In this document: positions 4,301-21,718 of the stretch, piece by piece
How the letters are laid out: every line of letters starts with the position of its first letter
How positions within the stretch are numbered: position 1 is the first letter of the stretch
Assembly (NCBI RefSeq): GCF_014696875.1
Contig: NZ_JACJQV010000177.1
Span: forward strand, 1 to 37,193
Source: Microcystis wesenbergii FACHB-1317
Lineage (GTDB): Bacteria > Cyanobacteriota > Cyanobacteriia > Cyanobacteriales > Microcystaceae
DNA: 37,193 bases
Reading direction: 5' to 3'
Made by a program: the position numbers and the translations under genes
Notes under the pieces: model-generated
The model's database searches: none
What the model was told of the DNA's origin: nothing
What the model saw: only the letters and a program-made list of their open reading frames with translations

Positions 4301-5187
4301 TTGGCCTGACTGCTACTATCGATCCGGACGGTGAAACCCTTCGCTTTTGTTTCTAATTCGGCGATATAGCCAGTATAGGTGGGGTTTTCAATGCCCGGTG
4401 AGCTTTTCGGTAAGGGTAATTGGTACGCAGTCAGGATTTCGGGCCGGATGGAGGTTAATAGGGTATTGATGGAAATGCCCCAATTAACCGCTCTCATCTG
4501 TTGGATTTCTGTGTCTGTGGGTTTTGTGCCGTCTTCGTAGGTGTAGTTAGAGAGAATCGGATGGGCCGATCGCCCGTTAATGCCGATTAACTCCCCCTCG
4601 ACAAAAATGCCGCCGCCACTCATTCCCTGCACGATATCGCCACTATAACCGACGCTGTAGCCCTCTTGGAGGGGTCGATCGCTCACCTGTTCGATCTTTC
4701 CCTTCGTCGTCCGATACTGTCCCGTTTCGGCAACATATCCCGCAGCCACCACTTCTAAACCGATCTCGTCTTGATTGGGGGTAAACCGCGCGATGGTGGC
4801 GATCGAATAATTCCTGGTATCGCTAAACTCCAGCAGAGCGAGATCTTGATTTTCCGATAGGGAATTGGGGACAATGCGGGCCGCACGGCTGTGGCCGTCG
4901 TAAGTTTGTACCTGTAGGGTTTTCGTGTTGCGGGTAACGTGGGCGTTGGTTAGGATAAGGTAATTATCGCCTTTTTTAGCGATAATCGTCCCCGATCCCC
5001 GATTTGTCTCGCTAGTAATCTTAACGGTGACTCGTTGTAGGATTTGCTCCTCGGTAAGCTCCCGATCGCCCTGTGCCGTCAGAATGGGATGATTAGAAAT
5101 ATTTCCGGCAGCCGGGGTGACAAGGGTTAACCCGGGTTGAGGCAGTAGGGAGAAAAGAAGGATGAGGGCGATCGAAGGTTTGATCAT
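1315..5187 (-). CDS. Exported tandem double-trypsin serine protease with long TPR array (paralogue 1)
   Basis: This is a 1290-aa protein. Residues 1-26 form a signal peptide, so it should act in the periplasm or outside the cell. Trypsin-like domain 1 (about 50-250) has TNAHV (His83), NQDLAL (Asp115) and GMSGGG (Ser190). Domain 2 (about 283-500) has TADHVL (His316), GVDLAI (Asp357) and GMSGGP (Ser453). Both triads are therefore intact. From about 535 to 1270 there are irregular TPRs, then about 17 regular 34-residue units of the type RG.LY..QKKWDLALADYNRAIELDPN. No PDZ domain is seen. AAGG lies 10 bases before the ATG. The first ~200 residues are nearly identical to those of the 13649-16519 gene, and the rest has diverged. 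Substrates are unknown. The TPRs probably recruit partners or substrates (inference). The stop codon abuts the repeat array. Confidence 0.9.
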   Translation of the reverse strand: MIKPSIALILLFSLLPQPGLTLVTPAAGNISNHPILTAQGDRELTEEQILQRVTVKITSETNRGSGTIIAKKGDNYLILTNAHVTRNTKTLQVQTYDGHSRAARIVPNSLSENQDLALLEFSDTRNYSIATIARFTPNQDEIGLEVVAAGYVAETGQYRTTKGKIEQVSDRPLQEGYSVGYSGDIVQGMSGGGIFVEGELIGINGRSAHPILSNYTYEDGTKPTDTEIQQMRAVNWGISINTLLTSIRPEILTAYQLPLPKSSPGIENPTYTGYIAELETKAKGFTVRIDSSSQANGSGAIIAREGKTYTVLTADHVLCEKIAEEKTCADYTYTVVTSDGKTLPLDRKTIIRQEGVDLAIFTFESNENYPVAEIANYSPNRESPVFVAGFPKIGDKRAGWLFSGGAVKSQEEGLLATRQSDFTITQSGASIRVSSLSGGYDMVYTSITFGGMSGGPVLNAAGQVIGIHGRSEGVKGKIQLGFSLGIPISSFIGLQERFRVKLSSFVTAQPQLTAQQQQQIDRTLVSVEVPETNASADIWIERGNQLWRLKKDDRSLQAFDRAIQLNNPEYTYLAWYGKALVYNRQYQYRDALEAIEKALATLPTREQGSEFHAEILHQRGSLYWALSLGQYEKAIESYEQAIKIFPRNPNYYNSLSTLLVIRQSFIRQDVRQYDRALEAINRAIEIAPRSGWYSNRGMLYGAWKKWDLALADYNKALALNPNNARAYINRADVYKERKEFDLALADYNRAIEIDANFAGAYASRGIFYMARKKWDLALADYNRAISIDPDNPILSFPRGIFYHFQGRNELALADFTRVIDSYSYQAVAYIMRGLAYVSLKKWDLALADLNRAIELDPNSAFGYGGRGGLYEGRREWDLALADYNRAIELDPNSAASYEARGNLYNKQQKWDLAIADYSRAIELGNFDGYSRRGSVYFQQQKWDLALADYNKAIETAPNPELAYFQRGALYELQKKGDLALADYSQAIRLNPYFELFYRFRGSLYYRQNQLDLALADYNKAIELNGNDAVLYYNRGEIYRQQQKSDIALADYSRAIELDPKYALAYAQRFRIYSQQKKWDLAIADITKFIEIAGKSEGYFLRGIAYAEWQKWDLALADFNRAIELKPDDASFYSMRGILYYQTQKWDLALADFNRAIDLDPKLKESYNFRGEIYKRQKRYSEALQDYQKLLELDEKNLIAITNIGLIHYEQGDLNLASSQFQKSLEINPQSAENQLALAVTLYRQGNTEKAIKLAKSALKIDPEFAQVETLQKNLWGDQIIADARKLFSQL

Positions 5188-6007: not shown

Positions 6008-9000
6008 TCACCCCCCTAATTGTTGTAAAATCTGCATCACTTGTTCATAAGCAGCCATATTATTCTGTTGGAGGAATAATATAGCTGCTTGTTGTAGATC
6101 AATTTTTACTTTTTCGGGTTGTCCTAATATGGCATATAAACCACCACGACCTAAGTAAGCTTGAGCCAAATTAGGATTAATTTCAATAGCTTTGTTGTAG
6201 TCAGAGAGGGCTAATTCGTATTTTTTTTGCTCAAAGTAAAGAAGCCCCCGATTGTTGTAAGCCTCAGCATCATTAGGATTAATGTCAATAGCTTTGCTGT
6301 AGTCAGAGAGGGCTAAATCGTATTTTTGTTGGCGATGGTAAAGAACCCCCCGATTGACGTAAGCCTCAGCATAATTAGGATTAATTTCAATAGCTTTGTT
6401 CCAGTCAGCTAAAGCTAAATCGTATTTTTCTTGGAGACGGTAAAGAACCCCCCGATTGTAGTAAGTCCCAGCAATCTTAGGATTAATGTCAATAGCTTTG
6501 CTGTAGTCAGAGAGGGCTAAATCGTATTTTTCTTGGAGACGGTAAAGAACCCCCCGATTGACGTAAGCCTCAGCTAAATTAGGATTAATGTCAATAGCTT
6601 TGCTGTAGTCAGAGAGGGCTAAATCGTATTTCTGCAAGTCTTTGTAAAGAAGCCCCCGATTGTTGTAAGCCTCAGCATAATTAGGATTAAGTTCAATGGC
6701 TTTGTTGATGTCAGAGAGGGCTAATTCGTATTTCTGCAAGTCATAGTAAAGATTCCCCCGATTGTAGTAAGCCTCAGCATAATTAGGATTAAGTTCAATG
6801 CCTTTGTTGATGTCAGAGAGGGCTAATTCGTATTTCTGCTGGTTATAGTAAAGACCCCCCCGATTGTAGTAAAGTATAGCAAAATTAGGATTAATTTCAA
6901 TGGCTTTGTTGAAGTCATCTAATGCTAATTCGTATTTTTGTAGGTCTTGGTAAAGATTCCCACGATTGTTATAAGCATTAGCATGATTAGGATTAAGTTC
7001 AATAGCTTTGTTGTAGTCAGCTAAAGCTAATTCGTATTTTTTTTGGCGACGGTAAAGAATCCCTCGATTGACATACCAAGCAGCACGGGGAGCGAGATCA
7101 ATTGCCTGAGTAATCGCCGCTAATCCCTCATCATAGCGTTTTAATTCACTTAATACTGCCCATTTCTCATTATAGTAATTGGGGTTATTGGGAACCAGAG
7201 AAATCGCCTGATTAATCACCGTTAATGCTTGCTCATAATTTTCTCTGGCTTCTCTTTCTGTACCTGCAATTTTTGAGAAGTCACCTAAAAAGCGATAAAC
7301 TACACTTTGCCGTTGTAAAATACTACTGTGAAACTTCTTTAAATTTTCCCGTTTAGGTAAGGTATTAATCGCTTGTTGCAAAGCTTCTATAGCTGGTTGA
7401 TGTTCGCGTAATTCAAATAACGCTAATCCCTTACCATACCAGGCTAAATAGACATTATCGGGGTCATTTTGCTTAATCGCTTCATCAAAGGCTTTAATTG
7501 CTTCCTGATCCCTTGCTAACCGCCATAATTGTCCCCCCCTTTGTATCCAAATATCCGCCTTCGCATTGGTATTAGGGACAATAACACCAGTAATCGCTTG
7601 AATAATTTCTTGTTGTTGTTGCGGACTAACTTGGGGTTGAGCAGTGGTTAATAATTGCGGTTTTACCTTCAATCTTTCTTGCAATCCGATAAAAGTGCTA
7701 ATGGGAATCCCTAAACTATACCCTAACTGAATTTCCGTTACCCCTGCTCCTTCTGAACGTCCATGAATCCCTATTACTCTCCCCTGAGAGTCTAAGACTG
7801 CACCGCCACTCATGCCCCCAAATGTGATGCTGGTATAAACTAATTCATAGCCTCCGGTTAAAGAAGCAACACTTTGTAATGTTCCCCCTTGTTTATTCCT
7901 TAAAGGACTTTGGCGGGTTTGTAGTAATCCCCGTTCTTTCTCGTCAATTGTACCGCCACTAAACAACCATTTCGAGGGATTGTCGCCAATTTTGGCGAAG
8001 CCTGCGGCAAAAACAAAATCATCGGTATTTGGGTTATAATTCGCTATTTCCGCAACGGGATAATTGTCCAGGCTTTCAAACTGAAAAACTGCTAAATCTA
8101 CCCCTTCCTGACGGATGATGGTGCTTTTCTCGATGTTTCGAGTTTTGCCGTCGCTGGTGACGACGGTGTAGGTGTGATCGGGACAAGGTTTACTTGCAGC
8201 ATCTTGACTTTCTTCCTTCTTCTCACATAATACATGGTCTGCGGTTAAAACCGTGTAAATATTGCCTTTTTTAGCGATAATTACGCCACTTCCATTGGCT
8301 GTACTGCTACTATCAATCCGGACGGTGAAACCCTTCGCTTTCGCTTCTAATTCGGCGATATAGTCAGTATAGACGGTGGTTTCTATATCGGGGTTCACCT
8401 GCGGTAGGGGTAGGTTATAGGCGCTGAGGATTTCGGGACGGATGTAGGTTAATAGGGTATGAAGGGGAATGCCCCAGTTAACCGCTCTCATCTGTTGGAT
8501 TTCTTCTGCGTCTGTGGGTTTTGTACCGTCTTCGTAGATGTAGTTAGAGAGAATCGGATGGGCCGATCGCCCGTTAATGCCGATTAACTCATCCTCGAAA
8601 AAGATACCACCGCCGCTCATTCCCTGCACGATATCGCCACTATAACCGACGCTGTAGCCCTCCCGGAGGGGTCGATCGCTTGTTTGTTCAATTTTCCCGT
8701 TATCGGTGGTGTACTGCCCCGTTTCTGCGGAATAACCGGTTACAGTGATATCTAGTTCCGCATCCGGGGAAATGGCGCGAATTTTAGCGATCGGATAATC
8801 CCGGGTATCGCTAAACTCCACGAGGGCCAGATCCTTATCTTTTAAAAGGGAATTCGGCGCGATCGAGGCTGTGCGGGTTTGGCCGTCGTGGGTTTGGATC
8901 TGTAGGGTGGTCGCGCCACGGGTAACGTGAGCGTTGGTCAAAACGAGGTATATACTGCCTTTTTTCCCGATAATGATTCCCGATCCCCGATTTATCTCGC

Positions 9001-9157
9001 TAGTAATCTTAACAGTGACTTGACGGATCGATCGCTCGATCTGCGCGTCTGGGCTGTCTTCCGCCACGATCGCCGGAGCAGAGAAAGGGGATAGCGCTTT
9101 AACTGGTACGACGGGCAGAAGTAGGAGGCTTAGGAGTAGGGGAAAGGGTTTCAACAT
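6008..9157 (-). CDS. Exported tandem double-trypsin serine protease with TPR array (paralogue 2)
   Basis: This is a 1049-aa protein with an N-terminal signal peptide (hydrophobic residues 3-20). Trypsin domain 1 has His77 (TNAHV), Asp109 (KDKDLAL) and Ser181 (GMSGGG). Domain 2 has His308 (TADHVL), Asp354 (GVDLAV) and Ser450 (GMSGGA). An irregular helical segment is followed by ten regular TPR units (about 690-1025) of the type RG.LY..QKYELALSDYNKAIE.NPN, several nearly identical at DNA level. The 5' third is noticeably richer in G+C than the AT-rich TPR part, which suggests mosaic origin. It lies 39 bases after the COP23 gene on the same strand and is probably the last gene of a four-gene operon. 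No strong ribosome binding site is visible, fitting cotranscription. Substrate unknown. Confidence 0.9.
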   Translation of the reverse strand: MLKPFPLLLSLLLLPVVPVKALSPFSAPAIVAEDSPDAQIERSIRQVTVKITSEINRGSGIIIGKKGSIYLVLTNAHVTRGATTLQIQTHDGQTRTASIAPNSLLKDKDLALVEFSDTRDYPIAKIRAISPDAELDITVTGYSAETGQYTTDNGKIEQTSDRPLREGYSVGYSGDIVQGMSGGGIFFEDELIGINGRSAHPILSNYIYEDGTKPTDAEEIQQMRAVNWGIPLHTLLTYIRPEILSAYNLPLPQVNPDIETTVYTDYIAELEAKAKGFTVRIDSSSTANGSGVIIAKKGNIYTVLTADHVLCEKKEESQDAASKPCPDHTYTVVTSDGKTRNIEKSTIIRQEGVDLAVFQFESLDNYPVAEIANYNPNTDDFVFAAGFAKIGDNPSKWLFSGGTIDEKERGLLQTRQSPLRNKQGGTLQSVASLTGGYELVYTSITFGGMSGGAVLDSQGRVIGIHGRSEGAGVTEIQLGYSLGIPISTFIGLQERLKVKPQLLTTAQPQVSPQQQQEIIQAITGVIVPNTNAKADIWIQRGGQLWRLARDQEAIKAFDEAIKQNDPDNVYLAWYGKGLALFELREHQPAIEALQQAINTLPKRENLKKFHSSILQRQSVVYRFLGDFSKIAGTEREARENYEQALTVINQAISLVPNNPNYYNEKWAVLSELKRYDEGLAAITQAIDLAPRAAWYVNRGILYRRQKKYELALADYNKAIELNPNHANAYNNRGNLYQDLQKYELALDDFNKAIEINPNFAILYYNRGGLYYNQQKYELALSDINKGIELNPNYAEAYYNRGNLYYDLQKYELALSDINKAIELNPNYAEAYNNRGLLYKDLQKYDLALSDYSKAIDINPNLAEAYVNRGVLYRLQEKYDLALSDYSKAIDINPKIAGTYYNRGVLYRLQEKYDLALADWNKAIEINPNYAEAYVNRGVLYHRQQKYDLALSDYSKAIDINPNDAEAYNNRGLLYFEQKKYELALSDYNKAIEINPNLAQAYLGRGGLYAILGQPEKVKIDLQQAAILFLQQNNMAAYEQVMQILQQLGG

Positions 9158-9196: not shown

Positions 9197-9805
9197 CTAG
9201 CGGGTGGGAACGCAATTATTTTGCGGGCCAGCAGATCTCGTACCACAGGGTGCGTCGCGATCGGCGAGTGGTGCTTTGGCGAAAAACTCCGTCATCGAGA
9301 TATAGGTTTTATCTCCAGAACTCTGGAGGAGCATATCCGAGCTTTTCCCCTCTAGGATGTCCATGAGTTGTTGCAAGACTAAATCTGGATTGTCGTGGGG
9401 TTTAAGGGTAAAAAGTTGGCTATTACCATCGCAGGGATCGCCGGATCGTGAAACGCTGCAGATGATCGGGTATCCCTTCGCCCGGCCGGTGGTGAGATAG
9501 TTAAAACGCCCTTGATTATAGGCTTCCTGGAATTTTTTCGTGACTTCCTCGCAACGAACCGGGGAACGTTTGGAGAAATATTCCGATTTCCAGCCGATAA
9601 TCCGCACATTGCCGCTCCTTTGGGGAATCCAAGCGAGGGTGGCGGGGATTTTTCCTCCCGATGCGCGATCGAACACCTCTTTACAGAAGAAGGTGACGCC
9701 ATTCGGGGTGGTCGATTGGCTGAAACCGGGGGCGATACCACCGAGGAGGACAGTGGCGAGGAGGCCGACGCAAGCGAGACGGTGGGAAATATATCTAGAG
9801 TTCAT
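9197..9805 (-). CDS. COP23 domain protein, exported
   Basis: The 202-aa protein has a signal peptide (about 1-30, ending GFSQS). It is followed by the COP23 pattern: VTFFCKE, PATLAWIP, IIGWKSEYFS, RCEEVTKKFQ, YLTTGRAKGYPIICS and LFTLKPHDNP. COP23 was named for a membrane-associated protein with circadian accumulation in a unicellular cyanobacterium; its biochemical role is not known. Several cysteines (in FFCKE, RCEEV, IICS, DPCDG, APCG, NNCV) could form disulfides after export. GAGGAA lies 8-9 bases before the ATG. It is sandwiched between two exported trypsin-like proteases on the same strand, 59 and 39 bases away. That hints it is a partner, inhibitor or substrate of them (inference). Confidence 0.85.
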   Translation of the reverse strand: MNSRYISHRLACVGLLATVLLGGIAPGFSQSTTPNGVTFFCKEVFDRASGGKIPATLAWIPQRSGNVRIIGWKSEYFSKRSPVRCEEVTKKFQEAYNQGRFNYLTTGRAKGYPIICSVSRSGDPCDGNSQLFTLKPHDNPDLVLQQLMDILEGKSSDMLLQSSGDKTYISMTEFFAKAPLADRDAPCGTRSAGPQNNCVPTR

Positions 9806-9864: not shown

Positions 9865-10965
9865 TTAAGGGTTAGCGGCGGCGTTGAGGGTGTAGCGACC
9901 CGATTCACCCCCTTCGCGAGAGGTAGCCACTAGGATATAAACTCCATCGGCAGGTAATTCGGTTACAAGTCGAGCGTTAAAATCCCCGGGAGCGCGATCG
10001 ACGCGCTGGTCACTACGGGCGACCTGTGGGTATTTTGTCCCCTCGGAAGATTGGAGAACGCGATAGAGGACAAGATAGGGAGCGATCTCGTTGCTGTTCA
10101 TATCCAGAACGATTTTCTGTCCGGCACGACCCTCGAACCCGTAATATTGTTGGTTTTGGTCTTTGGTCAAGTTGCCTTGAATGGTCTGACCGTTAAGAGG
10201 GAGGGCGAGTAACTGTATCCGCTCTTGCTGTCCTAATGTTGAGACGGTGGAGACATCGCCTGTTTTAACTGCGGTGAGGAAAGCTTGCAGGCGATCGAGG
10301 GAAACGGCGAAATTAATGCCGCTCTGGGTAAGGCCGATCGGGTTTCCCGCACCGTCGTAAACGTAACTCCCGATATCGCCTGCGACGTTAACCCCCACCA
10401 CTTCCCCCCGTGAATTCAAAAGCGGCCCGCCGGAATTGCCTTTGTTGATATTAGCGTTGTGTTGCACAATGCCTTTTTCGGGGTCGAGACGGCTGATAAT
10501 GCCCTGGGTGAGGGTGTTTTGATAGTCCTCGTTTAAGGGTGTGCCGATGGCGAAAACGCTTTCGCCGACTTTGGCGGAGTTCGCACGGGCGAGGGGAAGA
10601 TAGGGCAGGTTTTGGCGGTTATAAATCCGCAGGACGGCTAAATCCACGCCATTTTTAGCGAAGCCGATCACGTCTGCCGAGGCCTGCTGTCCGTTGGAAA
10701 ATTTCACCGTCACCACCCGGGGTCCGTCCGCAACAACGTGGGCGTTGGTAATGATGATACCGTCGGGACTGACGAGAAAGCCGCTACCGTGGCCGCTGCC
10801 ATTTTTGACGGTGACGACGGCGGGGCTGGCTTTCTGATAGACTCTAGAAGCGGTCTGATCCTGCGCGAGGATGGGTGGAATGTTTTCCATCAGGAAGCCT
10901 CCTGGTTGAACCAGTAGGCCAGTGGTGGCCAGTAGCACCGATAGGGTGAAAGTAATTGGTTTCAT
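9865..10965 (-). CDS. Exported S1C (HtrA-like) trypsin protease with C-terminal PPC-like domain
   Basis: The 366-aa protein has an N-terminal signal or anchor segment (residues 1-34). The trypsin-like fold at about 40-235 has TNAHV (His76), GVDLAVL (Asp108) and NKGNSGGPL (Ser178), the HtrA/DegP signature. No PDZ domain follows. Instead residues 255-366 look like a bacterial pre-peptidase C-terminal (PPC) beta domain (GQTIQGNL, YYGFEGRAGQKIVLDM, LPADGVYILVATS...GRYTL). GAGGAG lies about 8 bases before the ATG. Family knowledge suggests protein quality control or processing outside the cytoplasm. Its position after a TPR gene and before COP23 suggests joint expression. Confidence 0.88.
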   Translation of the reverse strand: MKPITFTLSVLLATTGLLVQPGGFLMENIPPILAQDQTASRVYQKASPAVVTVKNGSGHGSGFLVSPDGIIITNAHVVADGPRVVTVKFSNGQQASADVIGFAKNGVDLAVLRIYNRQNLPYLPLARANSAKVGESVFAIGTPLNEDYQNTLTQGIISRLDPEKGIVQHNANINKGNSGGPLLNSRGEVVGVNVAGDIGSYVYDGAGNPIGLTQSGINFAVSLDRLQAFLTAVKTGDVSTVSTLGQQERIQLLALPLNGQTIQGNLTKDQNQQYYGFEGRAGQKIVLDMNSNEIAPYLVLYRVLQSSEGTKYPQVARSDQRVDRAPGDFNARLVTELPADGVYILVATSREGGESGRYTLNAAANP

Positions 10966-11781: not shown

Positions 11782-12339
11782 ATGGTAAGCAAATCCCCGA
11801 CGATTACTGATGCGGAATTAATTCGCCTCAGTTGTCAGAACCCGGAATTAGGCTTTGAACGCAATGCAGATGGAACGTTAGTCACTATGCCCCCGATCGG
11901 AAGTATTTCAGCGAATCGAGAACTGAAAGCCGGCGCTCGCCTGCTCTACTGGGTCGAACAGAACGGGTTAGGAGAGGTATTTAGTTCTAGCGGCGGTTTT
12001 AAACTGGCCAATAGCGCGGTACGCTCTCCCGATGTGGCTTTCGTGGCGAGAGAACGTTTACCGTCCGGTTGGCAGGAAAGGGAGGATGAATTTCTCGATC
12101 TCGCGCCGGATTTCGTGATCGAGATCCGTTCTAAAACCGATAGTTTATCCAAGTTAAAGCGGAAAATGGAGGAGTATCGGGAGAACGGGGTGAAGTTAGG
12201 ATGGTTGATTGATCGCCACAATAAACAGGCTTTTGTCTATCGTCAGGACGGGACGATTACCTGTTATCCCGAGAACGCGATTTTAAGCGGGGAAGATGTG
12301 GTTCCGGGGTTCACCCTAGCGCTAGAAATCTTGCTGTAA
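11782..12339 (+). CDS. Uma2-family (DUF820) putative endonuclease
   Basis: The 185-aa protein has the Uma2 layout: TITDAELIRLSCQNPELGFERNADGTLV, a helix, GEVFSSSGGFKLANSAVRSPDVAFV (Asp84), then APDFVIEIRSKTDSLSKLKRKMEEYRENG (Glu114, likely part of a PD-(D/E)xK-type site), and LGWLIDRHNKQAFVYR...L. The length is normal for this very large cyanobacterial family of restriction-endonuclease-fold proteins, whose biological role is mostly unknown. It is the only plus-strand gene between 5 and 21 kb and is divergently transcribed from the TPR-protease operon. Confidence 0.9.
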   Translation: MVSKSPTITDAELIRLSCQNPELGFERNADGTLVTMPPIGSISANRELKAGARLLYWVEQNGLGEVFSSSGGFKLANSAVRSPDVAFVARERLPSGWQEREDEFLDLAPDFVIEIRSKTDSLSKLKRKMEEYRENGVKLGWLIDRHNKQAFVYRQDGTITCYPENAILSGEDVVPGFTLALEILL

Positions 12340-13648: not shown

Positions 13649-16519
13649 TTATCCCCCTAATTGTTGTAAAATCTGCATCACCTTTTCATAAGCAGCCATA
13701 TTATTCTGTTGGCGGAATAATATGGCTGCTTGTTGTAGATCAATTTTTGCTTTTTCGGTTTGTCGTAATATGGCATATAAAAGACCACGACCTAAGTAAG
13801 CCTCAGCCAAATTAGGATTAATGTCAATAACTTTGGTGAGGTCAGCTAAAGCTAATTCGTATTTTTCTTGGTAAAAGTAAAGAATCCCCCGACCTAAGTA
13901 AGCCTCAGCCAAATCATTATTAATGTCAATAGCTTTGTCGTAGTCAGCTAAAGCTAATTCGTATTTTTCTTGGAGACGGTAAAGAACCCCCCGATTGTTG
14001 TACGCCTCAGCATAATTAGGATTAATTATAATAGCTTTGCTGTAGTCAGAGAGGGCTAAATCGTATTTCTGCAAGTTTTTGTAAAGATTCCCTCGATTGT
14101 AGTAAGCCACAGCATCATTACGATTAAGTTCAATAGCTTTGTCGTAGTCAGCTAAAGCTAATTCGTATTTTTCTTGGAGACGGTAAAGAACCCCCCGATT
14201 GACGTAAGCCTCAGCATAATTAGGATTAATTTCAATAGCTTTGTCGTAGTCAGAGAGGGCTAAATCGTATTTTTTTTGGTCAGAGTAAAGAAGCGCCCGA
14301 TTGTAGTAAGCACCAGCATGATTAGGATTAAGTTCAATAGCTTTGTTGTAGTCATCTAATGCTAATTTGTATTTTTGTTGATCTCTGTAAAGATTCCCCC
14401 GATTGCCATACCAAACAGCACGGGGAGCGAGATCAATTGCCTGAGTAATCGCCGCTAATCCCTCATCATAGCGTTTTAATCGACTTAATACTGCGGATTT
14501 CTCGTTATAGTGATTGGGGTTATTGGGAACCAGAGAAATCGCCTGATTAATCACCGTTAAGGCTTGCTCATAATTTTCTCTGGCTTCTCTTTCTCTACCA
14601 GCACTTGTTGAGAAGTCACCTAAAAAGCTATAAACAACACTTTGCCGTTGTAAAATACTACTGTGAAACTTCTTTAAATCTTCCCGTTTAGGTAAGGTAT
14701 TAATCGCTTGTTGCAAAGCTTCTATAGCTGGTTGATGTTCGCGTAATTCAAATAACGCTAATCCCTTCCCATACCACGCTAAATAGACATTCTCGGGGTC
14801 ATTTTGCTTAATCGCTTCATCAAAGGCTTTAATTGCTTCCTCAAACCTGAATAACCGCCATAATTGTCCTCCCCTTTCTATCCAAATATCCGCCTTCGCA
14901 TTGGTATTAGGGACAATAACACCAGTAATCGCTTGAATAATTTCTTGTTTTTGTTGCGGACTAACTTGGGGTTGAGCAGTGGTTAATAATTGCGGTTTTA
15001 CCTTGAATCTTTCTTGCAATCCGATAAAAGTGCTAATGGGAATCCCTAAACTAAACCCTAACTGAATTTCCGTTACCCCTGCTGTTTCCGAACTTCCATG
15101 AATCCCTATTACTCTCCCCTGGGAGTCTAAGACTGCACCGCCACTCATGCCCCCAAATGTGATGCTGGTATAAACTAATTCATAGCCTTCGGTTAAAGAA
15201 GCAACACTTTGTAATGTTCCCCCTTGTTCATTGCTTAAAGGACTTTGGCGGGTTTGTAGTAATCCCTGTTCTTTATCGTGAATTGCACCGCCACTAAACA
15301 ACCATTTCGAGGGATTTTTGCCAATTTTGGGGAAGCCTGCGGCAAAAACAAAATCACCGGTATTTGGGTTATAATTCGCTATTTCCGCAACGGGATAATT
15401 GTCTCGGCTTTCAAACTGAAAAACTGCTAAATCTACCCCTTCCTGCCGGATGATGGTGCTTTTCTCGATGTTTCGAGTTTTACCGTCCTTGGTGACGACG
15501 GTGTAGGTGTGATCGGGACAAGGTTCACTTGCAGCATCTTGACTTTCTTCCTTCTTCTCACATAATACATGGTCTGCGGTTAAAACTGTGTAAATATTCC
15601 CTTCTTTAGCGATAATGACACCGCTACCGTTTCCACCGCTCGTACTATCGATCCGGACGGTGAAACCCTTGGCTTTTGTTTCTAATTCGGCGATATAGTC
15701 AGTAGGGGCGGTGGTTTCTATATCGGGGTTCACCGGCGGTAGGGGTAGGTTATAGGCGCTGAGGATTTCGGGACGGATGTAGGTTAATAGGGTATGAAGG
15801 GAAATGCCCCAGTTAACCGCTCTCATCTGTTGGATTTCTTCTGCGTCTGTGGGTTTTGTACCGTCTTCGTAGATGTAGTTAGAGAGAATCGGATGGGCCG
15901 ATCGCCCGTTAATGCCGATTAACTCCCCATCAACAAAAATGCCGCCGCCACTCATTCCCTGCACGATATCGCCACTATAACCGACGCTGTAGCCATCCCG
16001 GAGGGGTCGATCGCTCACCTGTTCGAGGGTTCCCTTTGTCGTCCGATACTGTCCCGTTTCGGCAACATATCCCGCGGCCACCACTTCTAAACCGATCCTG
16101 TCTTGATTGGGGGTAAACTCCGCGATGGTGGCGATCGGATAGTCCCTGGTATCGCTAAACTCCAGCAGAGCGAGATCTTGATTTTCCGATAGGGGATTGG
16201 GGACAATGCGGGCCGCACGGCTGTGGCCGTCGTAAGTTTGTACCTGTAGGGTTTTCGTGTTGCGGGTAACGTGGGCGTTGGTTAGGATAAGGTAATTATC
16301 GCCTTTTTTAGCGATAATCGTCCCCGATCCCCGATTTGTCTCGCTAGTAATCTTAACGGTGACTCGTTGTAGGAATTGCTCCTCGGTAAGCTCCCGATCG
16401 CCCTGTGCCGTCAGAATGGGATGATTAGAAATATTTCCGGCAGCCGGGGTGATAAGGGTTAACCCGGGTTGAGGCAGTAGGGAGAAAAGAAGGATGAGGG
16501 CGATCGAAGGTTTGATCAT
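13649..16519 (-). CDS. Exported tandem double-trypsin serine protease with TPR array (paralogue 3, chimeric)
   Basis: The 956-aa protein has a signal peptide and two trypsin-like domains with intact triads: His83, Asp115 and Ser190 in the first; TADHVL, GVDLAV and GMSGGA in the second. Seven regular TPR units follow near the C-terminus. Residues 1 to about 205 are almost identical to the 1315-5187 protein, including its signal peptide. From about residue 215 onward it follows the 6008-9157 protein, including EESQDAAS and the TPR region. It therefore looks like a recombinant of the two. It is 93 aa shorter than paralogue 2, which equals three 34-residue TPR units less the nine extra N-terminal residues. 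It follows the CHAT/CHASE2 gene by 65 bases on the same strand, with a palindromic repeat between. Confidence 0.9.
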   Translation of the reverse strand: MIKPSIALILLFSLLPQPGLTLITPAAGNISNHPILTAQGDRELTEEQFLQRVTVKITSETNRGSGTIIAKKGDNYLILTNAHVTRNTKTLQVQTYDGHSRAARIVPNPLSENQDLALLEFSDTRDYPIATIAEFTPNQDRIGLEVVAAGYVAETGQYRTTKGTLEQVSDRPLRDGYSVGYSGDIVQGMSGGGIFVDGELIGINGRSAHPILSNYIYEDGTKPTDAEEIQQMRAVNWGISLHTLLTYIRPEILSAYNLPLPPVNPDIETTAPTDYIAELETKAKGFTVRIDSTSGGNGSGVIIAKEGNIYTVLTADHVLCEKKEESQDAASEPCPDHTYTVVTKDGKTRNIEKSTIIRQEGVDLAVFQFESRDNYPVAEIANYNPNTGDFVFAAGFPKIGKNPSKWLFSGGAIHDKEQGLLQTRQSPLSNEQGGTLQSVASLTEGYELVYTSITFGGMSGGAVLDSQGRVIGIHGSSETAGVTEIQLGFSLGIPISTFIGLQERFKVKPQLLTTAQPQVSPQQKQEIIQAITGVIVPNTNAKADIWIERGGQLWRLFRFEEAIKAFDEAIKQNDPENVYLAWYGKGLALFELREHQPAIEALQQAINTLPKREDLKKFHSSILQRQSVVYSFLGDFSTSAGREREARENYEQALTVINQAISLVPNNPNHYNEKSAVLSRLKRYDEGLAAITQAIDLAPRAVWYGNRGNLYRDQQKYKLALDDYNKAIELNPNHAGAYYNRALLYSDQKKYDLALSDYDKAIEINPNYAEAYVNRGVLYRLQEKYELALADYDKAIELNRNDAVAYYNRGNLYKNLQKYDLALSDYSKAIIINPNYAEAYNNRGVLYRLQEKYELALADYDKAIDINNDLAEAYLGRGILYFYQEKYELALADLTKVIDINPNLAEAYLGRGLLYAILRQTEKAKIDLQQAAILFRQQNNMAAYEKVMQILQQLGG

Positions 16520-16546
16520 GGCTTTTACCTAGCTATTTTAAATAGT

Positions 16547-16579
16547 AGAAAACGGGTTTCTCCGAGAAACCCGTTTTCT
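16547..16579. repeat. 33-bp palindromic repeat, copy 2
   Basis: This is identical to the palindrome at 662-694 but in opposite flank orientation: the GTGCGTTACTC flank is on its right. It lies between the CHAT/CHASE2 stop and the start of the third double-trypsin gene and could act as an intergenic hairpin in the shared transcript. Confidence 0.85.
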
Positions 16580-16584
16580 GTGCG

Positions 16585-19053
16585 TTACTCAACGGATTTA
16601 GTATAAGAACGAAGAAAAAAGAAGATACCGGAGGTGGTGAGAAGTGCGATCGCTGGGGGGATAATCGGAACCCAGAGACCGAAATAACTAAAGAGAAGCC
16701 AACCGATACCAGTAAGGGAAATCACAGCGATCGCCACTGTCAAAAGTACCGTTTTTACCCGAAGAAAACGCCACGTTAATAATCCCCCCACCAGGGACCA
16801 ACCCAGCACCCAGAAAGCCTCCTGTAGGGGATTCCAGAAAGCGATCGAGGTACGTTTTCCTGTCATTGTATCGAGAATTTGACTGACCGCGTGCGCGTGC
16901 AAATAAACCCCCGGAATTGCTTCCGATGGGTTGCGACTAAAGGGGGTTAAAAAATCATCGATCCCGGGTTCTGTTACTCCAATCAGGACAATTTTTTCCC
17001 GGACTGATTCGGAATTAAAACCCGGATCTAAAACCTGTCGGAGAGATTTTTTCGGAGCAATTTTGATGATTGCATCGATGCCATTATCGGCGATTCGACG
17101 GTAAGCGAGCATAACTTGACGGCCGGATCGGGTATCGGATTGACTGGTTCTATAGGGGCCGCGGTTGGATTGTAGCCAGTCACCGAGATGAGTATCCCCG
17201 ATATTAATTTCTAGAATTCCCCGCTGCAGTTTATTGCAGTCAAAATCTTGATTCTGGGATTCTAGATATCGTTTGGCAATTAGGAGACTAAAACTAGGAG
17301 CATAATCTTTAAAATTACAGGACATTGAGTCAACTGTGGCCAAAGAATCCGGGGGAAGACAGGGAGAGGTGCGATCGAGTTTTGCCTGATATAAAAAACG
17401 ACGAATTCGGGGAACTCCGGCAATGGTTTCGTCTGGGACTATGTTACTAAAACCACTCTGATTTTTTGGCAGTTCCGGGGGTGGGGGAAATCCGTCCGGT
17501 TGCGGGTAATTATTGAACTTACAAATCGAGATAAAATTAGGAGTATTTTGTAATTGTTTGGCTAGGGGTGGATAATCTTGACTGGCAGCGATGGGACGGA
17601 GGATATCTAAGGCGATAATTTGCGGTTCGTAGGGCAGTAATTTATTTAAAAGCTGCGATAATGCTTCTCCTGCGAGGGAACGTTTTTGATCGCTTCCGGG
17701 TATTGTTGGTCTTTTCATACCCATGCGATCTTGATAGGCCCAATCTTGGCGATCGATGGTAATAATTAATAATCTTTCGTCGGGTTTATCTTTGGGTTTT
17801 AGTTGCATCAGACGATCATAAATATTTAATTCTAAGGGTTCTAAAATTCCTGTTTCTCTTATTGCCAAGACTGTCATCGTTACGGCTAAACCTAAACCGA
17901 AAGTTAGAGCAAATCGTCGCCAATTTTGTTGTTTTTGAGGGGAGTTACTAAAACTATGCCAAGTGGGGGGTTCTTCGGTGGGATTGGGGCAAACTACGGG
18001 CAACCAACTGGCACAGGGATAGTCTTTTTCCCAGTCATCGTGGAGATTTTTTTGGGCTTCATGTACGGCGCTATAGAGAGATTTATTATTGGTAAAAGCG
18101 GTTAAAAAGTATTGCAGAAATTTGGGAGAAACGGGATCGGGTAATTTCTCGCGCATAAAGATTAGATGGGGTAATGCCATCCCTTTTTCCCGGGATAGTT
18201 GTTGTGCCAAACCGATACCATCACAGGAGTTAAATATCGCTAACTTTAACCCGTTTTTAGTGGCTTCTCCCAGGGAAAAGCTAAAATCAGCTATCTTTAA
18301 TTTATGAGTTTCTGTTAGTTGAATTTCGCAATCTTGGCCATCTTCTGTACTGGCACTATGACCGCTAAAAAAGAGGATATTCCAAGTTTCTTGACGCAAT
18401 AACTGATTTAATTTTTGCGGGTGAGGGGCTTTTTCCCAGATAATTTCTGCTCCTGCTTTTCCCGCAATATCGTCTAAAGTTTTGCGATCTTCTTCGAGAA
18501 ATCTTAAGTCGGTGGCATAGCCTAAAATGGCTAAAATCCGAATTTTTTCATGATTTCTTAATTGTCTGCTTAAGGTATCGTATTCTGAGACAATAATGGC
18601 TATATCTGCGCCGGTATTTTGGAGAATTTCCCATTTTTCCCAGGGGAATCTTTGCAGCCAAATATTATCGGTTTGTACCCAGATACGAAAGTTATTACCA
18701 GAGCGCAGAATTGCGGTTTTTATCGGTTCAAATTCTGGGCTATTATTCAACCATTTGTTTAAGTTATCCTCAAATAATTTGGCTTTTTCTTGGCAGTTTT
18801 TAAAGACTAAATTCTGCTGAGAACTATTGGTAATTTGTTGGGGATTGCTATCTTTTAAGACTTTAAAAAATCCCTCTAATTCACTATAGTGACGTTGCCA
18901 TTGACGGTAAAGAGTTAATAACTCTAAATTAGCTGGTAGCCTTGCTTTGATCACAGTTTGGGGACGAGAATTAAGATCGGGACGAATTTCTAATTTTACT
19001 TTAAATCCCCGATCAAATGTGCCATCTAGTTCGAGAGTTAAGAGTTTAATCAT
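16585..19053 (-). CDS. CHAT protease-CHASE2 sensor membrane protein
   Basis: This is an 822-aa protein. The N-terminal half (about 1-360) carries a caspase-like CHAT domain with the catalytic dyad visible: His232 in LFFSGHSAS and Cys277 in AIFNSCDG, plus MALPHLIFMREKLPDPV. A membrane helix (about 379-397) leads to a CHASE2 extracytoplasmic sensor domain (about 400-735; LNIYDRLMQLKP, LLIITIDRQDW, VREKIVLIGVTEPGIDDFLTPF, PGVYLHAHAVSQIL). Three C-terminal membrane helices follow (about 740-812). Predicted topology: CHAT in the cytosol, CHASE2 in the periplasm. GAGG lies about 10 bases upstream of the ATG. The gap to the DUF1822 gene is only 15 bases. Inference: an external signal switches a cytosolic cysteine protease. 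Confidence 0.9.
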   Translation of the reverse strand: MIKLLTLELDGTFDRGFKVKLEIRPDLNSRPQTVIKARLPANLELLTLYRQWQRHYSELEGFFKVLKDSNPQQITNSSQQNLVFKNCQEKAKLFEDNLNKWLNNSPEFEPIKTAILRSGNNFRIWVQTDNIWLQRFPWEKWEILQNTGADIAIIVSEYDTLSRQLRNHEKIRILAILGYATDLRFLEEDRKTLDDIAGKAGAEIIWEKAPHPQKLNQLLRQETWNILFFSGHSASTEDGQDCEIQLTETHKLKIADFSFSLGEATKNGLKLAIFNSCDGIGLAQQLSREKGMALPHLIFMREKLPDPVSPKFLQYFLTAFTNNKSLYSAVHEAQKNLHDDWEKDYPCASWLPVVCPNPTEEPPTWHSFSNSPQKQQNWRRFALTFGLGLAVTMTVLAIRETGILEPLELNIYDRLMQLKPKDKPDERLLIITIDRQDWAYQDRMGMKRPTIPGSDQKRSLAGEALSQLLNKLLPYEPQIIALDILRPIAASQDYPPLAKQLQNTPNFISICKFNNYPQPDGFPPPPELPKNQSGFSNIVPDETIAGVPRIRRFLYQAKLDRTSPCLPPDSLATVDSMSCNFKDYAPSFSLLIAKRYLESQNQDFDCNKLQRGILEINIGDTHLGDWLQSNRGPYRTSQSDTRSGRQVMLAYRRIADNGIDAIIKIAPKKSLRQVLDPGFNSESVREKIVLIGVTEPGIDDFLTPFSRNPSEAIPGVYLHAHAVSQILDTMTGKRTSIAFWNPLQEAFWVLGWSLVGGLLTWRFLRVKTVLLTVAIAVISLTGIGWLLFSYFGLWVPIIPPAIALLTTSGIFFFLRSYTKSVE

Positions 19054-19068
19054 GAAGTTTTTCCTCGC

Positions 19069-20196
19069 TTATACTTGTAAATATTCGGTTACTCTTGCCG
19101 ATTCTAAAGCCACTTCAATGAAGAATTTATCCCCCAATTCAGCATCAAATCGATAACGAATAAATTCATCGTTATCTGTGGCAATTACTTCTCGAAAAAC
19201 CTGGCCAGTTTCGGTGAGAATACTTAATTTTAAATGGGGGGGTAAAGTGCTTGTTTCTCCGGTGGGGTAAACAGTCGCTTGCAGGCTAAATACTTCTTCA
19301 GTTTTAGCGATAGTAATCATCAAAGCGAGGGGATTTCCCAGTAATTCTACTCCTAAATCTTTGATGCGTTTAATTTCTGTATTTTTGAATGCTGGAACCA
19401 GTGACAGTGAGCTAAAATCGAGGATACTTTGCCAATCAATGGGGAAATTATCGGCAAACCAATTGGTTAACTTGACGGGGGATTTTTGCCGACGGGTAAT
19501 TAAAATTTTTCTCCAGTTACTATTGACGATAACTGCTGCCCATTCCTGAAAAGTAACGGCTTTTCTGGGAAAGATTAACTGAGGATTAGCTAAGATGTCT
19601 AGTAAGGTTGTCAATCTATCTAAAGATAGTTTTTCTTCCATCTTTTCCCGTTCAATCTTAACTGGTTGTAATTGATACTCTCCCCATAAATCCAAAGAAT
19701 CTGATCCTGATTGCAGTTGATTTCTCGGTAGAGAGTAGTTAAGATTACGCTTAATATATTGTCCTTTTTCCTTAATATCTTTATGGGTAGTATAACCCCA
19801 AATTCTTAGATGACTTTCGGCAGTGTTTACCTGTACCGCTAGATAATAATCACCAATTAATTGAGGAATATCTACCCATTCTTGAGGAATTTCGATCGCT
19901 TCTAGATCCAGAGTTTCGCTGGCAATAACTATTACTGACTTTTCGCCTAATTTAACGGTAAAACCATTAACTCCTAGTTGCCAGAAATCCTCTTGATTTT
20001 CTACTAAGCTAACCCCAGGCATCCCTGACTGTAGATAGTTATAAATAACTTGTTGACAAAGATAATTAACATAAAATCTCTGACGAATACTGGCATCAGT
20101 AAAACTGGCACTTTTTGCCCAACTTATCTCTTGAACATCTGCGGGTATTTCTAGCCAAATGCTATCAGGAGTTAGTTCTAACCAATCATTAACCAT
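19069..20196 (-). CDS. DUF1822 family protein
   Basis: The 375-aa protein is typical of the cyanobacterial DUF1822 family: WLELTPDSIWLEIP, RQRFYVNYLCQQVIYNYL, FWQLGVNGFTVKLGEKSVIVIASE, VDIPQLIGDYYLAVQVN...LRIWGYTTH. No signal peptide or membrane helix is seen, so it is probably cytosolic. I chose the ATG at 20194-20196 because AGGAGG sits seven bases upstream. A start 51 bases earlier would overlap the previous gene and has no such site. The upstream gene's stop lies just before this ATG, so translation is probably coupled. No biochemical function is known for the family. Its place between a sigma-like gene and a CHAT/CHASE2 gene suggests a regulator, adaptor or protease substrate. Confidence 0.88.
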   Translation of the reverse strand: MVNDWLELTPDSIWLEIPADVQEISWAKSASFTDASIRQRFYVNYLCQQVIYNYLQSGMPGVSLVENQEDFWQLGVNGFTVKLGEKSVIVIASETLDLEAIEIPQEWVDIPQLIGDYYLAVQVNTAESHLRIWGYTTHKDIKEKGQYIKRNLNYSLPRNQLQSGSDSLDLWGEYQLQPVKIEREKMEEKLSLDRLTTLLDILANPQLIFPRKAVTFQEWAAVIVNSNWRKILITRRQKSPVKLTNWFADNFPIDWQSILDFSSLSLVPAFKNTEIKRIKDLGVELLGNPLALMITIAKTEEVFSLQATVYPTGETSTLPPHLKLSILTETGQVFREVIATDNDEFIRYRFDAELGDKFFIEVALESARVTEYLQV

Positions 20197-20198
20197 AA

Positions 20199-21446
20199 TT
20201 AATCCTCCTGAGTTGTTGCGCTGGTTTGATAGTAGTATGTTAGCCATGGTTCTATTGCTTTACTAATAACTTCTCTATCGTGAGACTGGGAAGGAATATG
20301 CAGGTTTTCGCTGGCCCAGGGTAAAAACTTTTTAGCGAGGTGACGATAAACTTTATCCAGTTCCCTAGAAACCTGATATTGTTTGATAACTACCGTGGTG
20401 ATTTCTGTAATCTTAGCGGCAATTGCCACTTGTCCCAACCCTGAACCATAAGTCATCTCTAGAATTAACTGAATTTGCGGATGCAGTTTTGCCTGTTGCG
20501 GCTGCTGACAAATCTGTTCAATTTCTGCCCCTAACCAAGCTAGAATTTTTTGGTGGTTTTGTTGCGACTCGCGAAAATTTTCCGCCGCTTCTAATTGCTG
20601 CCAAGGGGTATCATGGTCAGTATCTTCGATCATTTCTTCCCTCGTGGTACTTTCCTCACCCCCTAAAGGTTGCTGTAGGGAAATTGTTTTTCCTTGGGGA
20701 AATAAATAATCAGAAATAGCTTGTCCCGCATCCTTTAACCATCGGGTAATTGTCCCAGAATTGATTTTGATGGTAGAGTGGCTATCCGAGTTATAAGCAG
20801 CGGCGATTTTTTGCCAGATTTCTGGACTAGGTTCCTGAATTTTACCATCGGTTTTTATTTTTGCCTGGGCATAAATTTCTTTATAGTAATCCCAAGCTAA
20901 AAGGTAATTTTCGAGAGTTTCTCCCACTAATCCCCTCGCCTGGAGAGCTTGGCTGAGACGCGCTCCGGTAGAATTAAGTAGTAGGCTCCAAGTATTATGG
21001 CCGAATGCTTGACTAATCTGACGGATGCGATCGATTAAGCGATATTTAATCCTCTGATTGGCAAAATTATCGAAGCGAGTGGAGAATAAAGGCTTAAAGT
21101 CAGCTAAGATAGCCTCAAAATCAAGAATTCCTTCGTTAAAGTAGTCTTCGATCTGATAATCTAGTTTAGCTTGATATTTTTGATAGATTTCGGCAGCAGC
21201 CCAGTAGCAAGGTTCCTGCAAATAAGCATATAAATGCCCACGAAAAAGATGATTTTTGGAACCGGGATTCTGATACTGTTGCTGAAAGAATAGGGACCAA
21301 TAATCCTCGGACTCGACATTAGGATCGATTGGGCCATAGCTTTCCATGTTACGACGCAAACGCCGATCGCAATTCCATTGTGTCCTATTTTGTCGCAAAA
21401 CTAAAAAGCAACAAAACTTCTCCAGCAAAGTCTCTCGTTTTTTCAT
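20199..21446 (-). CDS. Sigma-70-like transcription regulator
   Basis: The 415-aa protein has a segment DNFANQRIKYRLIDRIRQ (about 123-140) like sigma region 2.3/2.4 (F.NYA..RI...LID.IR). A C-terminal part, KLHPQIQLILEMTYGSGLGQVAIAAKI...LDKVYRHLAKKF, resembles the region 4 helix-turn-helix. It is longer than usual ECF factors. The middle (IQEPSPEIWQKIAAAYN...TITRWLKDAGQAI) also looks helical and DNA-binding-like. The start is uncertain: the first codon (21446) lacks a good ribosome site, and Met34 (21347; MESYGPIDPN) is an alternative. It is the first gene of the operon with DUF1822 and CHAT/CHASE2, an order I recognise from other cyanobacteria. Sigma activity is inferred, not shown. Confidence 0.7.
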   Translation of the reverse strand: MKKRETLLEKFCCFLVLRQNRTQWNCDRRLRRNMESYGPIDPNVESEDYWSLFFQQQYQNPGSKNHLFRGHLYAYLQEPCYWAAAEIYQKYQAKLDYQIEDYFNEGILDFEAILADFKPLFSTRFDNFANQRIKYRLIDRIRQISQAFGHNTWSLLLNSTGARLSQALQARGLVGETLENYLLAWDYYKEIYAQAKIKTDGKIQEPSPEIWQKIAAAYNSDSHSTIKINSGTITRWLKDAGQAISDYLFPQGKTISLQQPLGGEESTTREEMIEDTDHDTPWQQLEAAENFRESQQNHQKILAWLGAEIEQICQQPQQAKLHPQIQLILEMTYGSGLGQVAIAAKITEITTVVIKQYQVSRELDKVYRHLAKKFLPWASENLHIPSQSHDREVISKAIEPWLTYYYQTSATTQED

Positions 21447-21718
21447 CTAGCTAGTCCCCGTGGAGGTCAACTAAACTCTCTATCGTTCCACTTGCAGCTT
21501 TTATGCAGTATTTTGGCATTTTGTTACAAATTGATCATACTCGGTCTAGGAGAGTCACATTGACATACTCCCCCACCCCCAACAGCTAACCCCCATGGCG
21601 GACCAGAACGGGCATATTAAAAAAAAACCTGTCCACTGTTCCTGAGAAACGTTAACATAAGTTAACAACCCCTTAACAACCGATAAGATCATCCCCAATT
21701 TATCAGGAGTTCGACAGC
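21447..21718. promoter_or_regulatory. Divergent upstream region with three phased TTAACA boxes before ftsH
   Basis: The spacer lies between the sigma-like gene (minus) and ftsH (plus). TTAACA occurs at 21652, 21662 and 21673, that is at 10- and 11-bp steps on one helix face, 46-67 bases before the ftsH start. The second box with TAAGAT at 21684 (16-bp gap) could make a promoter. Alternatively the boxes are an operator. AGGAG ahead of GTG serves as ribosome site. Confidence 0.4.

Follow-up and report, generated by a model that had tools for sequence, protein, structure and literature searches.

The DNA analysed here is a stretch of 37,193 nucleotides from Microcystis wesenbergii FACHB-1317 (contig NZ_JACJQV010000177.1), called the window below. 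It carries three minus-strand genes coding, in this order, for a sigma-like protein, a DUF1822 protein and a protein in which a caspase-like CHAT protease domain is followed by a CHASE2 sensor domain (Table 1). The original prediction, made from the sequence letters and their open reading frames (ORFs), had recognized this trio and proposed that the sensor gates an anti-sigma release circuit. Its description of the locus agrees with our ORF calls and with the Pfam matches of the window proteins (DUF1822, E = 4.8e-63; CHASE2, E = 1.4e-47; CHAT, E = 1.7e-10), and the gap of 15 bases that it gave between the DUF1822 and CHAT genes is correct. The junction between the first two genes had been described as a start-stop overlap with an AGGAGG; the AGGAGG is indeed found there, but the genes do not overlap, since the sigma stop codon (TAA) lies at 20201–20199 and the DUF1822 ATG at 20196 begins two bases after it. 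This ATG is the most likely start, as judged from the alignment of relatives and from the ribosome-binding site; a longer DUF1822 ORF, from 20247, does overlap the sigma stop, and that start finds no support among relatives.

Table 1. Positions of the trio and of associated features in the window
Feature	Positions	Strand	Remarks
Sigma-70-family protein, 415 amino acids	20199..21446	minus	Start conserved; region 2 at about 73–145, region 4 at about 320–373, low-confidence stretch 251–286
DUF1822 protein, 375 amino acids, candidate sigma partner (anti-sigma or adaptor)	19069..20196	minus	Mixed alpha/beta, C-terminal part beta-rich, no TPR
CHAT-CHASE2 protein, 822 amino acids	16585..19053	minus	EACC2-like N-terminus about 1–108, CHAT 109–367, hydrophobic 380–398, CHASE2 392–758, hydrophobic C-terminal 769–815
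Promoter-like element ACTGCATAA-N16-GATA, candidate autoregulatory promoter	21481..21509	minus	Upstream of sigma gene; no support from matrix scan
AGGAGG, likely ribosome-binding site of DUF1822	20204..20209	minus	
Region with 15-base-pair hairpin (z-score −4.39), no immediate U-run	16520..16590	minus	Between CHAT-CHASE2 and trypsin-TPR genes
Double trypsin-like plus TPR protein, optional fourth component	13649..16519	minus	Signal-like N-terminus (crude rule)

DUF1822 is widespread in the phylum: it was matched in 168 of the 244 sampled genomes at E ≤ 0.001, and in 158 of them above the family cut-off. Gene order was read in two sets of loci. Set 1 consisted of 140 fetched regions (141 of the 150 DUF1822 matches listed) and the window, with 145 DUF1822 ORFs in total; set 2 comprised 80 named loci with 82 DUF1822 ORFs and is biased because its query profile was mostly derived from trios. 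The neighbour of a gene was defined as the next same-strand ORF of at least 90 amino acids in our own ORF calls, at any distance. In set 1, DUF1822 mostly stood directly behind a sigma-type gene (127/145), a CHAT protein was directly downstream in 90/145 and the full order sigma-DUF1822-CHAT was found in 77/145; the corresponding figures for the biased set 2 were 75/82, 64/82 and 58/82. The co-occurrence of the three genes in cyanobacterial genomes, proposed as a check in the original prediction, is thus conserved. The commonest gene downstream of DUF1822 was that of a CHAT protein, with both of the sigma types described below. Within the genus, 9 of the 12 Microcystis genomes carried a DUF1822 gene, which has an internal stop in one (G249) and is matched partially in another; the window copy is 95–98% identical to those of the Microcystis loci L144–L146. 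The ratio of non-synonymous to synonymous substitution rates (dN/dS) between Microcystis strains was 0.36–0.62 for the sigma gene, 0.21–0.39 for DUF1822 and 0.21–0.26 for the CHAT gene. Because the gene order recurs and dN/dS lies at 0.21–0.62 (nine comparisons), the trio is more than a chance arrangement. In one distant family of the phylum (f30), many genomes of about 2 Mb had a single weak DUF1822 match, possibly ancestral or with a different role.

The catalytic residues His232 and Cys277 are present in the CHAT domain of the window protein, where they had been predicted. Among 154 CHAT proteins encoded downstream of DUF1822, the histidine was found in 149/149 and the cysteine in 147/147 aligned members (5 and 7 proteins, respectively, being unaligned at these places), and the pair was also invariant in the 20 members of a further alignment. 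The N-terminal 370 residues are constant across members and the C-termini variable; conservation, as judged from the alignment, includes the first 100 residues, where the N-terminal alpha+beta EACC2 domain described by Kaur et al. 2021 might lie. The C-terminus is CHASE2 in 99 of the 154 proteins. The ten non-CHASE2 members that were scanned had nSTAND1 (4, two of them with WD40), periplasmic-binding-protein (Peripla_BP; 3), TPR (2) or HEAT (1, below cut-off) regions instead. A hydrophobicity rule gave one segment just behind the CHAT domain of the window protein and overlapping segments near its C-terminus (Table 1), which would place CHAT in the cytoplasm and CHASE2 outside the inner membrane. 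In Pfam, the window protein matched solely CHAT and CHASE2 at E ≤ 1, and Peptidase_C14 was not matched. The host genome has nine CHAT matches, the window copy included. At locus L029 (2161–5961), a Peptidase_C14-nSTAND1 protein occupies the CHAT slot behind DUF1822.

The first gene had been called sigma-70-like, and this proved clear for the family, as judged from profile matches, and borderline for the window member alone. By itself the window protein matches TIGR02937 below the cut-off (E = 5.4e-9; 35.9 bits versus 42.9) and matches no Pfam family at E ≤ 0.1; phmmer searches of solved structures, each with one window protein as the query, were of no use. The long-sigma family to which it belongs matches TIGR02937 in 40/40 members (best E = 1.1e-33) and FliA_WhiG in 40/40 (best 1.3e-14), both at E ≤ 0.01, as well as SigBFG in 37/40 (1.7e-12) and the sigma70-ECF (extracytoplasmic function) superfamily model in 40/40; many ECF subfamily models match more weakly. 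Region 4 was found in 37/40 and region 2 in 30/40 members (Pfam, E ≤ 0.1). When compared with solved structures, the family profile found sigma F/FliA chains (7.8e-8 and weaker) over regions 2 and 4. The long family would thus seem FliA/SigF-like rather than ECF, a lean without certainty. In a fold search with the predicted structure, 48 of the best 50 matches listed were RNA polymerase or sigma entries, the best with E = 2.8e-3, none at ≤0.001 and with low TM-scores. The window protein carries an insertion in the helix-turn-helix of region 4, and its residues 251–286 have a predicted local distance difference test score (pLDDT) below 50, with a weak Sigma70_r3 match at 254–281 (E = 0.22). This stretch presumably resembles sigma region 3.2, in which disorder is expected. 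At other loci, this slot is taken by a second family, of short sigma-like proteins (a cluster of 54 members, median 226 amino acids); it matches TIGR02937 in 15 of 36 aligned members, and its profile finds the ECF factors SigK (3.2e-4) and RpoE (1.7e-3). Since long and short types fill one slot, the slot appears to call for a sigma factor. In the host genome, the top score of the sigma profile fell on a sigma factor of 258 amino acids (L235, 3.8e-15), above longer and shorter ones.

The DUF1822 protein was modelled with a mean pLDDT of 83 and, by this model, would be without an evident membrane segment. A function as anti-sigma factor is suggested by its genetic linkage. The description of DUF1822 as a TPR protein in the literature (Kaur et al. 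2021, PMC8195603, in the portion of the text available) was considered and rejected, a TPR match being found in 0/46 members and the model likewise being without TPR.

Over-represented words upstream of sigma genes led to TGCATAA, some 16–18 bases before [GC]ATA. The word CTGCATAA was found in 19/118 sigma upstream regions compared with 13/921 for other genes (P = 2.8e-11), TGCATAA in 30/118 compared with 54/921 and the two-part form in 14/118 compared with 7/921. Such P-values are optimistic, as the words had been picked out from these very sigma regions, and loci that are related do not count as fully independent observations. TGCATAA was found in 4/53 of the upstream regions of short sigma genes. 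In the window, ACTGCATAA-N16-GATA is the sole match to TGCATAA-N15-19-GATA, where 0.06 were expected and 6 of 100 shuffled sequences had one. By reading of the matched sequences, the element recurs with a closely similar spacer in 8 of the 12 Microcystis genomes. It is a candidate self-regulated promoter of the sigma operon, on the strength of these word counts. In the stretch that separates the sigma gene from the divergent gene, a generic promoter scan gave no minus-strand site of the sigma-70 type. The element is unlike the J-Box of SigJ (GGGaAtacT), as given in the available part of its source. A wider Microcystis regulon was also considered, since the 12 genomes gave 24 matches compared with 2 in a backward control. 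It was rejected because the matches fall in three recurrent places: the operon, a position within a coding sequence (checked in G000) and another some 870 bases ahead of the start of the following gene (checked in G089). At sigma-DUF1822 pairs with no adjacent CHAT gene (L004–L007, L010, L015 and L016), a common stretch, TAGGTNGG(C/G)T, stands shortly before the sigma start.

The reading that we favour, with a probability of roughly 45%, is that the trio is a cyanobacterial EACC2-caspase/DUF1822/sigma cassette in which CHASE2-gated CHAT proteolysis lifts a restraint imposed by DUF1822 on the sigma factor, with autoregulation. CHASE2, outside the inner membrane, would sense a signal, which the first membrane helix would relay to the EACC2-CHAT module in the cytoplasm, activating its His232/Cys277 protease. 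The protease would then lift the restraint, most likely through cutting DUF1822, and the freed sigma factor would start transcription, its own operon included, from ACTGCATAA-N16-GATA, giving positive feedback. That a protease-sigma circuit of this kind can exist follows from Csx29/Csx30/CASP-sigma, for which it has been demonstrated (see below). The anti-sigma release of the original prediction gains from this analogue, from the co-occurrence of the genes, from catalytic residues that never vary among the aligned proteins, from a family profile of sigma type and from the candidate promoter element; it loses from the frequent absence of CHAT as the next gene.

This absence is the first of several observations that weigh against the CHASE2-gated release of the sigma factor. 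An upstream sigma-type gene was present and the next ORF was not CHAT in 48/145 cases in set 1 and 13/82 in set 2; these are upper bounds, because a small ORF separates DUF1822 and CHAT in a few loci (L021, L120). With many sigma-DUF1822 pairs lacking a neighbouring CHAT gene, release by an adjacent protease is unlikely to be the sole mode of control. Conversely, a CHAT protein without an upstream sigma-type gene was found in 13/145 and 5/82 cases, plus one at a contig end. DUF1822 had no match among solved folds at E ≤ 0.001 (best 6.1e-3), and thus no structural hint of anti-sigma function.

As regards the promoter-like element, TGCATAA is present in just 30 of the 118 sigma upstream regions, occurs before other genes as well (54/921) and is roughly equally frequent with a CHAT gene (16/68) and without one (14/50). 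Its reverse complement, TTATGCA, is enriched too (20/118 compared with 30/921), an excess that a plain promoter leaves unexplained. A two-block matrix trained by expectation-maximization matched 30/59 held-out sigma regions compared with 189/400 others at the lowest threshold and 7/59 compared with 7/400 at the highest, and the score of the window site (13.0) was exceeded at nine other places in the window; the matrix being uninformative, we relied on exact-word counts. No further convincing target of the element was found in the 12 Microcystis genomes. The TTATGCA enrichment (sigma upstream regions, L004–L223) would be compatible with a two-way element or an operator.

Correlations between evolutionary distances, computed without regard to species relatedness, were 0.79 for sigma-DUF1822, 0.84 for DUF1822-CHAT and 0.52 for sigma-CHAT; they track gene order and are not evidence of contact. 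DUF1822 as a hub of the system, which the partial correlations might suggest (sigma-DUF1822, 0.77; DUF1822-CHAT, 0.83; sigma-CHAT, −0.44; n = 64), was rejected because the chain extends to a further gene, that of a DUF928 protein, in a control (n = 23; CHAT-DUF928 partial 0.53, DUF1822-DUF928 partial 0.12). Since the chain reaches DUF928 along the operon, gene order accounts for the pattern.

Four other explanations were weighed. According to Kaur, Iyer, Burroughs and Aravind (2021; eLife 70394, PMC8195603, available text), the genes would form a conflict or cell-death system in which the C-terminus senses, the caspase is activated by autoproteolysis, DUF1822 is an adaptor and not a substrate, and the system has further outputs besides the sigma factor. 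This was inferred for the same neighbourhood, and the nSTAND1 C-termini in four of the ten scanned non-CHASE2 members, two of them with WD40, speak for it. However, none of the PADLOC models fits the trio, an autocleavage site was not identified, and the CHASE2 (99/154) and periplasmic-binding-protein (3/10) C-termini fit envelope sensing equally well as invader sensing; we consider such a system possible, though on the unlikely side. The genes might also be co-transcribed as a stress cassette, with CHAT acting on other proteins and with sigma and DUF1822 as a separate regulatory pair. The pairs without an adjoining CHAT gene (up to 48/145 in set 1), an upstream element about as frequent without CHAT and the nine CHAT matches of the host genome would all suit this explanation, but the gene found most often downstream of DUF1822, with either sigma type, is that of CHAT, and we consider the explanation unlikely. 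It is quite improbable that the sigma factor is itself the substrate of CHAT, inactivated or activated by the cut, with DUF1822 as a scaffold: the low-confidence residues 251–286 could be an accessible linker for such a cut, but may also be ordinary sigma region 3.2, given the weak Sigma70_r3 match. That the window protein has lost sigma function and serves only in DNA binding or as a scaffold is very improbable in spite of its lack of a Pfam match, the insertion in region 4 and the sigma ORF being split in two in L110 and L144 (the latter Microcystis viridis FACHB-1342), as its relatives match sigma models in 40/40 cases, dN/dS is 0.36–0.62 and nearly all of the best fold matches listed are RNA polymerase or sigma entries, though all above E = 0.001.

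Behind the trio, on the same strand, a gene for a protein with two trypsin-like domains and TPR starts 65 bases past the CHAT gene and behind a strong hairpin (Table 1), which may be an attenuator or a repeat. Up to 1 kb past the CHAT genes, 111 genes follow on the same strand; of these, 52 belong to DUF928 (a family named via Pfam for two members) and 4 to the double-trypsin type, the latter all in Microcystis loci; by a crude rule, 64 of the 111 bear a signal compared with 266 of 987 background ORFs. A trypsin gene replaces CHAT directly behind DUF1822 in L084, L091 and L095, and lies between sigma and DUF1822 in L209. The sample contains 29 strong double-trypsin matches. Of these, 14, from 6 of 11 genomes, have a listed DUF1822 match no more than 15 kb away, where 0.40 were expected, several of them being tandem neighbours and hence not independent; the other 15 have none at that distance. 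In the window there are three tandem double-trypsin-TPR copies, all on the minus strand: the one in Table 1 and two paralogues at 1315–5187 and 6008–9157, which are 68 and 81% identical to it, with TPR and trypsin pieces between. They are the only strong full double-trypsin matches of the genome, and no other match comes near them over the trypsin part.

The array also contains, on the minus strand, a gene for COP23 (circadian oscillating protein) and a single trypsin-like gene, at 9197–9805 and 9865–10965, and, on the plus strand, a gene for an Uma2 putative endonuclease (11782–12339). In its second trypsin domain, the first trypsin-TPR protein (13649–16519) matches the PADLOC models LmuA (9.6e-31) and RT-Protease_XI, maybe only because of a shared peptidase fold. 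A bolder version of the release model would be a self-amplifying switch in which CHASE2-gated CHAT cuts DUF1822, as an anti-sigma class unlike the solved folds compared, and sets free a distinct sigma lineage, FliA-like and with a promoter type of its own (ACTGCATAA-N16-18-GATA); in Microcystis, this lineage would maybe also command the tandem exported double-trypsin-TPR family. We regard this version as doubtful.

If the release of sigma by a CHASE2-gated CHAT protease is correct, the freeing of sigma factors by caspase-like enzymes would extend beyond CRISPR, with bacteria using it to answer envelope signals, and the receptor fusions would form a family of plug-in sensors. With the promoter-like element, the transcriptional end can be tested directly. 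Several known systems bear a likeness to the trio; sources cited in this comparison were available in part. In the regulated proteolysis of RseA by DegS and of RsiW (as cited in PMC10028731), a protease relieves an anti-sigma factor. DegS, however, cuts an anti-sigma factor with a transmembrane segment, whereas here the protease carries the sensor and DUF1822 appears to be without a membrane segment. HetF (NF045509), a cyanobacterial cell division protein, shows weak similarity in the CHAT region (16 of 20 members at E ≤ 0.01), but the window protein reaches about 14.4–16.2 bits against a cut-off of 1200. Asplund-Samuelsson (2012, PMC3501461) describes, for Trichodesmium, a fusion of a metacaspase with CHASE2 and, for Myxococcus and others, operons in which metacaspase and sigma-70 genes stand together. 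The tethering of a caspase-type domain to CHASE2, for which an identical topology was inferred, and the operons of caspase and sigma genes are alike, but those proteins are described as metacaspases, DUF1822 is unmentioned in the available text, and the window protein has a match to CHAT but none to Peptidase_C14. In one Nostoc genome, CHASE2 sensor and DUF928 genes occur together in a cluster, as noted in a 2017 paper.

The closest demonstrated mechanism is that of the type III-E CRISPR system (Strecker 2022, PMC10028731), in which the CHAT protease Csx29 (TPR-CHAT) cleaves Csx30, the inhibitor of CASP-sigma. There, too, a CHAT protease, a sigma factor and a sigma partner share one locus; however, the trigger is the binding of target RNA to Cas7-11-Csx29 and not a membrane sensor, and the sigma factor is ECF. 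Csx30 was absent among the best 50 of the 1156 fold matches listed for DUF1822, the CHAT profile found no Csx29 chain, and Cas7-11 did not turn up in the Pfam scans of the window proteins, no search having been aimed at it.

The original prediction knew of no described mechanism for the trio, but both the gene set and a model of signalling from protease to sigma factor have been published (PMC8195603). In the literature searched, DUF1822 is named in two papers, and together with a sigma factor only in this one; the term EACC2 appears here and in two further papers on unrelated matters. Kaur et al. describe a constant EACC2-caspase with variable C-termini, CHASE2 among them, report that most TRADD-N-independent EACC2-caspase neighbourhoods have DUF1822 and a gene for an ECF sigma factor next to them, and predict sensing, autopeptidase activation and caspase-to-sigma signalling output. 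The constant N-terminal caspase-type module, the variable C-terminus and the adjacent DUF1822 and sigma genes are shared with the trio, whereas the long sigma factor fits FliA/SigF models somewhat better than ECF and DUF1822 is without TPR. The Microcystis trio is a copy of this gene set, to which our analysis adds the likely sigma type, a promoter-like element as candidate start signal, and a trypsin-TPR or DUF928 gene as fourth member.

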